Assembly: GCA_028278625.1 (NCBI GenBank)
Contig: JANQDY010000093.1
Span: 1-21,308, forward strand
Direction: 5' to 3'
Source: Thermodesulfobacteriota bacterium
GTDB lineage: Bacteria > Desulfobacterota > DSM-4660 > Desulfatiglandales > Desulfatiglandaceae
Length of the DNA stretch: 21,308 nucleotides
The notes below the pieces were generated by a model that had not been told where the DNA came from, did not search any database, and saw only the letters and a program-made list of their open reading frames with translations. The position numbers and the translations under genes are program-made. Below are positions 1,833 through 21,249 of the stretch, piece by piece (position 1 is the stretch's first letter; every line of letters starts with the position of its first letter).

Positions 1833-3479
1833 ATGAAGAGAACCAAATGGTTTTTCCTTATTCTATTCATCCTGTTTACGCCATGGACATTTGCTCTGGC
1901 AGCGGATGTTACACCTGAAACCCTGCCAGACATAGAGAACCTCGAATCCCTTATTCAGTCCATGAACAACCTCCAGAGGATCATCTTAGCGACTCAGGAA
2001 GTCATGGAGGGTCCGGGCGGTGAGGGCCGGGAAAAAGAACTAAAGACCCGGCTGGACCAACTGCAAATGAAATTGCAGGTGATGGAACGGAGTTTTGAGC
2101 GGCTGAGCGCGGGCATGGCCGTGGACGCCCTTTTAAAGGGAAAGGAAGCGCCCGTTGACTGGAATCGTGAACTGGCGGAGTTCCTGTCGCCGATCATGAG
2201 TGAGATCAAAAAAATGACCTCACGGCCCAGACAGATCGAGGCCCTCAGAAACGAAATTGCACAAAATGATGCGCAGCTCCTGATGGCAAAAGGGGCCCAG
2301 GAACGCTTGATGGCCTTGGTGTCGAAAACCAGCAATCCACAACTGATTGAAAAGCTGGGAAAACTGACGCGCACCTGGGAAAACCAGGAAAACGAAATCA
2401 GGACCCGTAAAGCGGTATCCGAAAAAGCGCTTCAAAAGGCCCTGGGTGAGAAGAAATCCTTTTCTCAATCTCTAAAAGAAGTGCTGGCATTCTTCTTTCA
2501 AAGCAGGGGGAAAAATCTGTTTTTGGCCCTTCTGGCCTTCGCCGTTATCTGGGGCTTGCTGCACTACCTGCACAAGCTGATCTTTCATCTGAGCCCCTTC
2601 CACAAGAAGGGCAGATCTTTCGGCGTTCGACTCTTTGATCTTTTCTACCGGGTTTTCATGGTGGTGATCTCCGGCTTTGTGCTGCTTGGAACCTTCTATT
2701 TTCTGGGGGACTGGTTGCTCCTCTCCCTGGCCATCATTTTTGTCATGGGAATCGTCTGGGCCTCAAAACAGGCGCTACCCCGCTTTTGGAATCAGGCGGC
2801 CCTCATGCTCAATTTCGGCTCCGTCAGAGAAGGGGAAGTGGTGGTTTACAAGGGAATACCTTTTGAGGTAGGTTCCATCAACATGAATTCCAAACTGGAG
2901 AACGAGGCCTTTGAAAACGGTTTCGTGCGGCTGCACATTAATGATTTGATGGAATTGCGGTCAAGGCCCATCACCCAGAATGAACCCTGGTTTCCTTCCA
3001 GAAGCGGCGACTGGGTATTGCTTAAAGACGGCACATACGGCTCTGTCGTGGCCCAAACCCCTGAATTGGTGACCCTAAAACTGAAGGGGGACGCCCTGAA
3101 ATATTATGTCACACAGGAATACCTGGCCCAGTCACCCATAAACCTCTCCGAAGGCTACCGGCTTACGGGTGTCTTCGGTGTGGATTACCGGCATCAGGAC
3201 ATTGCCACCGGGGAAATCCCGGAAATACTGCAAAAATCGTTGACTGAGGCCCTTATTGAAGCGGGACACGGCGATTTGATTGAGCGCATACGGGTGGAAT
3301 TCAAAGAGGCCGGCGCTTCTTCGCTGGATTTGGCCATTCTGGCTGAATTCAACGGAAAGGCAGGGGCAAAATACTGGGTCCTTGAAAGGGCCATCCAAAG
3401 AATCTGCGTTGATGTCTGCAACCGGCACCAATGGGTCATTCCCTTTCAACAGGTCAGCGTTCATATGGCAGGATCATAA
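1833..3479 (+). CDS. MscS-like mechanosensitive channel with N-terminal periplasmic coiled coil
   Basis: 548-aa inner-membrane protein. ATG 1833 is preferred over an upstream in-frame codon at 1764 because AGGA (1820-1823) precedes it at 9 nt and a clean signal peptide then follows, with likely cleavage after Ala23 (ALA-AD). Residues about 30-215 are charged and helical, probably a periplasmic coiled coil. Three hydrophobic segments follow at about 228-250, 270-292 and 293-313. Next comes an MscS-type beta-domain (GEVVVYKGIPFEVGSINMNS, about 334-353) and a C-terminal region ending in the family-like phrase WVIPFQQVSVHM. The canonical pore-helix Gly/Ala pattern and the NFISG motif of E. coli MscS are not obvious, so this is an atypical member, possibly a regulatory or scaffold variant. 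It should gate on membrane tension if functional. Confidence 0.75.
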   Translation: MKRTKWFFLILFILFTPWTFALAADVTPETLPDIENLESLIQSMNNLQRIILATQEVMEGPGGEGREKELKTRLDQLQMKLQVMERSFERLSAGMAVDALLKGKEAPVDWNRELAEFLSPIMSEIKKMTSRPRQIEALRNEIAQNDAQLLMAKGAQERLMALVSKTSNPQLIEKLGKLTRTWENQENEIRTRKAVSEKALQKALGEKKSFSQSLKEVLAFFFQSRGKNLFLALLAFAVIWGLLHYLHKLIFHLSPFHKKGRSFGVRLFDLFYRVFMVVISGFVLLGTFYFLGDWLLLSLAIIFVMGIVWASKQALPRFWNQAALMLNFGSVREGEVVVYKGIPFEVGSINMNSKLENEAFENGFVRLHINDLMELRSRPITQNEPWFPSRSGDWVLLKDGTYGSVVAQTPELVTLKLKGDALKYYVTQEYLAQSPINLSEGYRLTGVFGVDYRHQDIATGEIPEILQKSLTEALIEAGHGDLIERIRVEFKEAGASSLDLAILAEFNGKAGAKYWVLERAIQRICVDVCNRHQWVIPFQQVSVHMAGS

Positions 3480-3498
3480 TCTTTCCGGAGCAAACAAT

Positions 3499-4755
3499 TT
3501 GGAACTGAAAATTCAAAATGAACACAAAATCGTGGCACTCATTCAAAAGGGTGTCAGAATCCCCAACCCCATGACCCTTTACCTGGATGATGACGTTCTG
3601 GTAGACCAGATCTCCGGGGACGGTGTGACCCTTTATCCCGGTTGCCGCATCTATGGCGCGGAAACGGCCATTTCACGGGGCGCACAGATTGGATTTGAAG
3701 GCCCCGCCACCATTCTGAACTGCCAGATCGGCGCCAACGTGGAACTGAAGGGCGGGTATTTCAAAAAAGCGGTCTTTCTCGCGGATTCGAAAATGGGTCT
3801 CGGCGCCCATGTGCGTGAGGGGACCATCTTGGAGGAGAAAGCCAGCGGTGCCCACTGCGTGGGTTTGAAACAGACCATTCTCTTTCCCTTTGCCACACTG
3901 GGAAGCCTGATCAATTTTTGCGACTGCCTCCTCGCCGGTGGCACCAGCCGAAAAGACCACAGCGAGGTGGGCAGCTCTTACATCCACTTCAATTTTTCCG
4001 TAACCGGCGATAAGACGACCCCCTCTATGTTCGGGGATGTTCCAAAGGGGGTCATGCTCGATCAGCCGCCCATCTTCCTGGGCGGCCAGGGGGGTGCCGT
4101 GGGTCCCCTTCGCGTGGGATTCGGAAATGCGGTCTCGGCGGGCACTGTCCTAAGGAAAGACGTTCTGAAGGAACGCAAGTTGATTATGGAGAAGGCGCGT
4201 CGTGGAGGCGAATTTCCCTTTATCTTCAATCGCTATTCCGGTCTGTCCCCCATGCTGGAGAAAAACCTTCATTATATGGCGCAGTTGGCAGCTCTTGAAG
4301 AGTGGTACCGTTACGTCCGGCGGGATTTTCTTAACGGGGAAAAACTGGGATATCTGCTCTATAACGGCGCACTGGATAATTTGAGGCTGGCGCTCGGAGA
4401 ACGGGGCAAACGATTAAAGGCGGTGGCCAGTAAAATGCCCGATTCAATCCGTCAAGATGAAAGCGACGGCATCAAAAACGGCAAACGTGAGTTTCATCAA
4501 ATGGTGGACGAGGTGTTGGGCGTATTTGATGTGGACGCTGAAACACCGGCCGCCCTTGAGCATCGTAACGATTTCCTGGAAGCGTTGGCAAATCGCAAGG
4601 GGGAAGATGGCTCGGATTATGTTGCCGTGATTCAGGGCCTTTCAGAGAACGCCAAAATGGAAGGCACAAAATGGCTCAAGACCATTGTTGAGGATCAGTG
4701 CCAAAAGGCGGGTGCCCTGCTGCCCGCCTTGCATCTATTTCAGGAATCTATCTGA
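3499..4755 (+). CDS. Left-handed beta-helix protein resembling the GlmU C-terminal domain
   Basis: 418-aa protein. The proposed start is TTG 3499, since GGAG at 3487-3490 sits 8 nt upstream and this start clears the mscS stop by 19 nt. Longer in-frame versions run about 200 nt into mscS and encode no recognisable extension. Residues about 15-220 contain hexapeptide-like turns (PGCRIYGAETAISRGAQIG, NCQIGANVELKGG) and the arrangement VGFGNAVSAGTVLRKDV, which resembles the acetyltransferase beta-helix of GlmU. The N-terminal uridyltransferase domain of GlmU, with its nucleotide-binding GxG loop, is absent. The C-terminal about 190 residues are alpha-helical and unfamiliar. Because glmM follows 105 nt downstream, a role in UDP-GlcNAc metabolism is attractive, but activity as a sugar-1-phosphate acetyltransferase is inference. 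It is not a complete GlmU. Confidence 0.72.
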   Translation: MELKIQNEHKIVALIQKGVRIPNPMTLYLDDDVLVDQISGDGVTLYPGCRIYGAETAISRGAQIGFEGPATILNCQIGANVELKGGYFKKAVFLADSKMGLGAHVREGTILEEKASGAHCVGLKQTILFPFATLGSLINFCDCLLAGGTSRKDHSEVGSSYIHFNFSVTGDKTTPSMFGDVPKGVMLDQPPIFLGGQGGAVGPLRVGFGNAVSAGTVLRKDVLKERKLIMEKARRGGEFPFIFNRYSGLSPMLEKNLHYMAQLAALEEWYRYVRRDFLNGEKLGYLLYNGALDNLRLALGERGKRLKAVASKMPDSIRQDESDGIKNGKREFHQMVDEVLGVFDVDAETPAALEHRNDFLEALANRKGEDGSDYVAVIQGLSENAKMEGTKWLKTIVEDQCQKAGALLPALHLFQESI

Positions 4756-4775
4756 GGAATCGTAAACCGAAACAG

Positions 4776-4847
4776 AAGAAGCTTCGGCAAACCCGTAAGG
4801 CGGGAACGCCCAGAGGGTTCACCGGCCGGGCTTCTTTTATCTTTTTT
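4776..4847 (+). promoter_or_regulatory. Structured hairpin with U-tract in the glmM leader (attenuator/terminator-like)
   Basis: By-eye folding gives an outer stem AAGAAGC (4776-4782) with GCTTCTT (4830-4836), continued by CGGC (4785-4788) with GCCG (4825-4828). Inside are AACCC (4790-4794) with GGGTT (4815-4819) and GGCG-GGAA-CGCC (4799-4810), capped by a GNRA tetraloop. An alternative inner helix CCCG/CGGG (4792-4795, 4801-4804) is mutually exclusive with it. The outer stem runs into TTATCTTTTTT (4837-4847), typical of an intrinsic terminator. The glmM Shine-Dalgarno AAGGAG starts at 4848, so no promoter fits between. It either ends the upstream operon or works as an attenuator for glmM. 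Confidence 0.6.
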
Positions 4848-4860
4848 AAGGAGATGAGCA

Positions 4861-6219
4861 GTGGGCAAGCTGTTTGGTACGGATGGTATCAGAGGTAAAG
4901 CCAATGAATACCCCATGGATGGGGAGACCGCCTTTCGCGTCGGCCAGGCACTGGCGGTTGTGTTAAAAGGTGAGAAGAAAAGGGTGCGGATTGTGATCGG
5001 CAAAGACACCCGTATATCGGGGGATATGCTTGAGAACGCGCTGTCCGCCGGAGTTGCATCCATGGGCGGCGACGTTCTTTCCTTAGGGATACTGCCCACA
5101 CCGGCGGTATCATACTTTACGGTCCTGCTGCAGGCGGACGCCGGTGTTGTTATTTCCGCTTCCCACAACCCCTTTTCGGACAACGGGATCAAGGTCTTCG
5201 GCAAAGACGGCTTCAAACTCTCGGATGATGAGGAATCGATCATAGAATCCCTTGTTCTCAAGAGAGTTTTCCCGGAATCCGCGCCTCAGCCTGAAAATTT
5301 GGGCCGAATCGATGCCGTAAAAGAGCGTTTGGATCAGTATGTAACCTTCCTGAAAGGGCATTTTCCTAAAAACCTCTCATTAAAGGGGATGCATATCGTG
5401 CTCGATACCGCAAACGGCGCAACCTACGAAGCCGCTCCTTTATTGTTTGAAAGTCTGGGCGTTAAGGTATCGGTAATCCACCATGAGCCCGATGGGATCA
5501 ACATCAACCACCGGTGTGGCTCCCAGCATACGGAGGATCTGTCGGCGGAAGTGGTCAGGAAGAATGCCCACATAGGGTTCGCTTTTGACGGAGACGGAGA
5601 CCGGCTGATTGCGGTGGACGAAAAGGGAAAACCACTCACCGGCGATCAGATTCTGCTAATTTGCGCCGGTTCCCTGAAGGAAAAAGGCGAGCTCCAGAAC
5701 AACCTGCTGGTGAGTACCGTCATGAGCAATCTGGGGCTTGCCAACGCCTGCCGGGAATACGGCATCAAACGCCATGAATCGGCTGTGGGGGACCGCTACG
5801 TGCTGGCGGATATGCAGCGGCACGGAGCGGTATTGGGCGGTGAAGAATCCGGTCACATCATTCTGTTGAACCATCACACCACCAGTGACGGGATCATAAC
5901 GGCGCTTCTGCTTCTTGAAACCATGGTTCAAAAGGGTCAACATCTCTCGGAACTCGCCCGGTTGATGACCGTGTACCCGCAGAAGCTGATCAATGTGCCG
6001 GTCAGGAAGAAAACCGACATTTCAAGAGTGCCCCAGCTGGCACAAACCATTCATGCGGTGGAATCGGAACTGGGCCGTGAGGGGCGGGTGCTGGTGCGAT
6101 ACTCCGGCACACAGAATCTATGCCGCGTGATGGTTGAGGGTCCAACATTGGCCGGTACCGAAGCATACTGCCGCCGGATTGCCGACAGCGTACAAGAAAA
6201 CCTGGGAAGCGATATTTGA
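4861..6219 (+). CDS. glmM: Phosphoglucosamine mutase GlmM
   Basis: 452-aa cytoplasmic enzyme of the alpha-D-phosphohexomutase family. It converts glucosamine-6-phosphate to glucosamine-1-phosphate, the step before GlmU in UDP-GlcNAc synthesis for peptidoglycan and LPS. It starts at GTG 4861 with AAGGAG (4848-4853) 7 nt upstream, and the protein opens with the diagnostic GKLFGTDGIRG. The phosphoserine loop SASHNP carries Ser101. The Mg-binding loop DGDGDR has D243, D245 and D247. The sugar loop GGEESGH is at 326-332, and the phosphate-binding loop RYSGT is at 413-417, followed by QN rather than the commoner EP. Length is normal. It is the last gene of the left + strand run and converges with the 83-aa gene on the other strand. 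Its expression probably depends on read-through of the leader hairpin. Confidence 0.96.
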   Translation: MGKLFGTDGIRGKANEYPMDGETAFRVGQALAVVLKGEKKRVRIVIGKDTRISGDMLENALSAGVASMGGDVLSLGILPTPAVSYFTVLLQADAGVVISASHNPFSDNGIKVFGKDGFKLSDDEESIIESLVLKRVFPESAPQPENLGRIDAVKERLDQYVTFLKGHFPKNLSLKGMHIVLDTANGATYEAAPLLFESLGVKVSVIHHEPDGININHRCGSQHTEDLSAEVVRKNAHIGFAFDGDGDRLIAVDEKGKPLTGDQILLICAGSLKEKGELQNNLLVSTVMSNLGLANACREYGIKRHESAVGDRYVLADMQRHGAVLGGEESGHIILLNHHTTSDGIITALLLLETMVQKGQHLSELARLMTVYPQKLINVPVRKKTDISRVPQLAQTIHAVESELGREGRVLVRYSGTQNLCRVMVEGPTLAGTEAYCRRIADSVQENLGSDI

Positions 6220-13591: not shown

Positions 13592-13676
13592 GCGAGAGTG
13601 GCGGAACTGGTAGACGCGCTGGATTTAGGATCCAGTAGGGTGACCTGTAGGGGTTCGAGTCCCCTCTCTCGCACCA
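13592..13676 (+). tRNA. tRNA-Leu (anticodon UAG)
   Basis: 85-nt class II tRNA including an encoded CCA. The acceptor stem is GCGAGAG (13592-13598) with CTCTCGC (13666-13672). The anticodon arm CTGGA-TTTAGGA-TCCAG gives anticodon TAG. The variable arm is long (AGG-GTGA-CCT), as expected for leucine. The T arm AGGGG-TTCGAGT-CCCCT (13649-13665) is perfect. It reads CUA and, by wobble, other CUN codons. Confidence 0.97.
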
Positions 13677-21174: not shown

Positions 21175-21249
21175 AGGCGGGTAGCTCAGTGGGAGAGCAT
21201 CGGCCTTACAAGCCGGGGGTCACGGGTTCAAATCCCGTTCCGCCTACCA
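21175..21249 (+). tRNA. tRNA-Val (anticodon UAC)
   Basis: 75-nt tRNA with encoded CCA. The acceptor stem AGGCGGG (21175-21181) pairs with TCCGCCT, with one G-U pair. The D arm begins GCTCAGTGGGAGAGC, the anticodon loop CTTACAA gives anticodon TAC, and the T arm CGGG-TTCAAAT-CCCG is intact. It resembles E. coli tRNA-Val(UAC). Nothing further is seen in 21250-21308. Confidence 0.96.

Follow-up and report, generated by a model that had tools for sequence, protein, structure and literature searches.

Intrinsic (Rho-independent) terminators, including the leaky ones that lie within operons, consist of a GC-rich stem followed directly by a U-rich tract. We found the same arrangement between a gene resembling the GlmU acetyltransferase domain and glmM in the window, as we call the whole 21,308-nt stretch of DNA that was analysed. 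The element differs from these terminators in being a large compound hairpin, in having a U tract broken by AUC, and in abutting the Shine-Dalgarno sequence of the next gene. Some likeness also exists to the c-di-GMP-I-GGC aptamer (RF03167), in that 24 aligned bases resemble its GGCAAACC...GGACGC helix. However, the element has neither a tetraloop helix of normal length nor the invariant As after ACGC, and the second helix could not be aligned. With the glmS ribozyme, the common ground was the pathway neighbourhood only, and no Rfam match was obtained even at E up to 10, in agreement with the original prediction that the element is a different RNA. No description of a glmM leader element appeared in the titles and abstracts of the literature searched, although other papers may contain one. 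Our preferred reading, held with moderate confidence, is that the element is a lineage-specific putative intrinsic terminator in the spacer of a GlmU-like/glmM operon, with partial read-through into glmM.

The identity of the downstream gene as glmM is certain from its protein family match (Table 1). The true start of the upstream gene is probably nearer 3490, as guessed from how far the match to relatives extends. Its protein was matched by the NCBIfam GlmU models with a best E of 1.6e-13 and 50.4 bits, far below the curated cut-off of 658, and by the GlmU structure 5vmk in the PDB with an E of 0.001, while no Pfam family was found at 0.001. It is this weak GlmU similarity that suggests that both genes belong to one pathway. 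We inspected 71 glmM loci, comprising the window and two sets of 40 and 30, of which 15 were dropped as duplicates, as truncated or as having less than 120 nt upstream. A GlmU-like gene and glmM stood in tandem (within 400 nt) at 36 of the 56 distinct loci with the window and 35 of the 55 without it, one of the 36 (L109) being counted on a short partial match. In 22 of the 36 the spacer was at most 67 nt long, and three pairs overlapped by 8 nt. This recurrence makes it most likely that glmM is co-transcribed with the GlmU-like gene. In many lineages the GlmU-acetyltransferase-like gene adjoins glmM, with loci titled Kiritimatiellae, Verrucomicrobia and Raineyella among them, and this upstream member of a conserved pair has neither a clear Pfam family name nor an NCBIfam name above cut-off.

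Table 1. Coordinates of the element and its flanking genes in the window
Feature	Position	Strand	Details	Basis
Upstream GlmU acetyltransferase-domain-like gene	3280..4755	+	Stop TGA 4753-4755	ORF as listed
Outer stem, 5' arm	4774..4788	+	Terminator-like; 4774-4783 and 4785-4788 paired, U4784 bulged	Fold and sequence
Inner helices	4790..4819	+	AACCC/GGGTT 4790-4794/4815-4819 and GGCG/CGCC 4799-4802/4807-4810	Fold
Outer stem, 3' arm	4825..4838	+	Pairs with 4774-4788	Fold and sequence
U-rich tract TTTTATCTTTTTT	4835..4847	+	Directly after the outer stem	Sequence
glmM Shine-Dalgarno AAGGAG	4848..4853	+		Sequence
glmM, phosphoglucosamine mutase	4861..6219	+	Start GTG 4861	TIGR01455, 571 bits vs cut-off 447.55

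The original prediction described a nested, multi-helix element with a GNRA-capped inner hairpin, ending in a terminator-like stem and a U tract up to 4847, with the glmM Shine-Dalgarno sequence starting immediately afterwards. Folding, shuffled controls and the sequence itself confirmed this description. The compound hairpin with its inner helices extends over 65 nt (4774-4838), and GGAA at 4803-4806, which is of the GNRA type, caps the GGCG/CGCC inner helix. The fold of 4775-4840 had an energy of -30.9 kcal/mol and a z of -3.51, and none of 200 dinucleotide shuffles equalled it. With 4756-4847 the z was -2.31 and 4 of 200 shuffles were equally good, and the wider segment 4740-4865 was unremarkable (z -1.31; 24 of 200). 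The features of an intrinsic terminator, a stable GC-rich hairpin and a U-rich tract right after the stem, were thus both present; the first four U of TTTTATCTTTTTT were paired in the fold. In prefixes of the RNA, a weak early hairpin formed by CCGAA/TTCGG (4767-4771/4783-4787, about -4.4 kcal/mol) was replaced by the terminator stem. The hairpin was missing from the list of a simple terminator scan because that scan allows loops of 3 to 8 nt only. Sequestration of the Shine-Dalgarno sequence by the U tract (4831-4865) was also considered and set aside, since the fold was unremarkable at -7.3 kcal/mol, with a z of -1.26 and 17 of 200 shuffles as good.

At the scan threshold, the + strand between 3500 and 6500 contained no promoter-like site. 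The best loose promoter match in 4500-4860 agreed at 7 of 12 positions, and a loose sigma-54-like site at 4718, which lacks the GG of the -24 element, agreed at 8 of 11. The scan thus bore out the expectation that no recognisable promoter lies between the hairpin and the glmM start, so that glmM probably depends on read-through from upstream; a glmM promoter of a type outside the scan is conceivable. Of the routes first proposed for glmM, namely regulated read-through or a promoter upstream of the element, dependence on read-through was retained as probable, and its regulation is considered unlikely. If the hairpin acts as a terminator, polymerase coming from the upstream gene would transcribe the U-rich tract after the GC-rich hairpin, and some complexes would stop at about 4841-4847, leaving the upstream gene with a stable 3' end. 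The remaining complexes would read through into glmM, and the hairpin would set a lower, roughly constant glmM dose, at an efficiency that we infer. Against this reading, an efficient stop just 5' of the Shine-Dalgarno sequence of an essential-type gene without its own promoter would be costly.

We searched for the element in relatives with R1, a covariance model built from the one sequence entered twice and therefore weak for distant relatives. Among the 71 glmM loci it found the window and none of the 70 others, the best of which gave 14.1 bits (E 1) at a place off the spacer. In 85 genomes of the order, a single match was obtained (34 bits, E 1.6e-4), in which the outer stem alone aligned; this is a bidirectional hairpin that scores on the opposite strand too. 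The class-level genome set consisted of the identical 85 genomes. The nearest GlmM proteins were 76% identical among the best 120 of 8000 matches in a search of 5.8 billion proteins. The four nearest relatives, L098, L099 (strain NaphS2, the same place as L001), L100 and L101, had GlmM identities of 76, 76, 69 and 67%, and the element was absent from their spacers of 13, -8, 29 and 138 nt, respectively. A scan of the 120 nt upstream of glmM for a hairpin with a U-rich tract gave -31.7 kcal/mol for the window, -18.3 for the next-best relative (L102) and nothing in these four.

In DNA similarity searches, three near genomes yielded nothing beyond pieces of 14-27 bases, at E 0.3 or worse. Pieces of 17-34 bases were matched at E <= 0.05 in fourteen of the 85 order genomes, the whole element occurring in none; the longest piece, 32 bases in L081, seemingly coincides with the end of an open reading frame, as judged by eye. 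At E up to 10, four phage records matched 18-19% of the query and one plasmid record matched 36%, and two patterns searched against viral contigs gave no match. As far as these comparisons reach, the hairpin is private to its lineage, and the putative terminator was most likely gained recently rather than lost.

A possible, if rather unlikely, explanation is a repeat-like palindrome, either neutral or mobile, or an mRNA-stability or processing hairpin, that sits in an insertion-tolerant spacer and terminates only incidentally. The spacers of the tandem pairs indeed varied from -8 to 301 nt. Some relatives' spacers contain other hairpins, and any hairpin there may therefore be neutral. For example, the 138-nt spacer of L101 (genome G005; 2857-2994, - strand) contains another inverted repeat, which is matched in part at 8 other sites of its genome at E <= 0.01. 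However, no second copy of the element was found within the 21-kb window and no whole copy in the 85 order genomes, and a U-rich tract immediately after the stem suits a terminator.

Condition-dependent attenuation is a doubtful alternative. In this model, CCCGCCUU at 4723-4730 pairs either with 4705-4712, so that the terminator forms, or with 4797-4804, so that it is broken, depending on the position of the ribosome on the upstream gene. CCCGCCTT at 4723 can pair with either copy of the word AAGGCGGG, at 4705 or at 4797. With the RNA 5' end placed at 4713, the probability of the terminator stem fell to 0.10 and that of the long-range helix was 0.89. However, this effect appeared at 1 of 16 start points, the others giving 0.957-1.0 for the terminator stem; dinucleotide shuffling of the upstream part equalled it in 39 of 1000 cases, and an 8-base repeat occurred in 203 of 2000 mononucleotide shuffles. 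The upstream hairpin moreover lies within coding sequence, and no relative of the element was found for comparison. It is more doubtful still that, in this one species, the 3' end of the GlmU-like frame serves as a sensor, with a ribosome on the last codons setting the pairing of 4723-4730 and hence termination before glmM; if so, glmM output would be coupled to translation of its pathway partner. The segment 4705-4730, towards the end of the upstream coding sequence, is a perfect-looking GC-rich hairpin and shares AAGGCGGG with the element.

We also regard it as improbable that a c-di-GMP-I-GGC aptamer with its terminator survives here as a degenerate and shortened remnant or variant. Between 4785 and 4809, CGGCAAACCCGT and AAGGCGGGAACGC (24 nt) could be aligned to the aptamer of a relative, the two blocks being separated by a 3-nt gap and containing a single mismatch in all. 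Of 14286 control tiles, each 77 nt long, none reached the alignment score of 36, the best control being close at 34, and the aptamer class is widespread among relatives (above the cut-off in 39 of 99 genomes and at E <= 1 in 75 of 99). However, the Rfam score of 11.4 bits (E 3.6) falls far short of the gathering cut-off of 59 for membership of RF03167. A model of 28 relatives' aptamers gave 6.0 bits (E 2), ranking ninth among the window's own chance matches, and in a larger search it gave no match in the window at E <= 10. By our own reading of the columns that are invariant in the 28 aptamers, 6 of the 10 alignable ones were kept and 4 lost; both As after ACGC were lost, the remaining 6 invariant columns could not be aligned, and the similarity stops at 4809. 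We take the resemblance to be due to chance or, at most, a remnant. Among the 99 genomes searched, G091 (3.1 Mb) had the most c-di-GMP-I-GGC matches at E <= 1, with 13. Three c-di-GMP-I type aptamers lie within 2 kb in a Kuenenia MAG (L028:653-2641, - strand; 44.9-76.1 bits with model R2), on the strand opposite to glmM.

The original prediction proposed a cis-regulatory RNA with the geometry of an attenuator or riboswitch and with mutually exclusive inner helices. A riboswitch or a conserved cis-regulatory RNA found no support here. The alternative helix CCCG/CGGG (4792-4795/4801-4804) is present, with a probability of about 0.0006, and forcing it gave -28.6 vs -32.6 kcal/mol with the outer stem intact. 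The two inner helices do exclude each other, but the intact outer stem accommodates either of them, and their exchange would therefore not alter termination. Conservation upstream of glmM in relatives, on which the prediction had itself been staked, was seen neither in the 70 other loci nor in the four nearest spacers. The suggested Rfam scan gave nothing at the element at gathering cut-offs, the sole gathering matches in the window being two tRNA genes (13592-13673 and 21175-21246). In the scan at E up to 10, sucA (16.6 bits vs a cut-off of 40), a togavirus frameshift element (15.2 bits vs 40), suhB (11.5 bits) and sR18 (10.9 bits) were taken as chance. A ligand-sensing RNA that controls glmM according to amino-sugar supply is thus highly improbable, the position 5' of glmM and the terminator-like 3' end being in its favour, but the absence of the element from all 70 other loci, the lack of an Rfam match at gathering cut-offs and the indifference of the outer stem to the inner alternative standing against it.

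These results caution that a strong hairpin 5' of a pathway gene does not by itself make a riboswitch, and four near relatives sufficed to mark the present one as private to its lineage. Should the hairpin terminate transcription, as we favour, the case would illustrate on a small scale how an operon can gain an internal terminator between two genes of a pathway.
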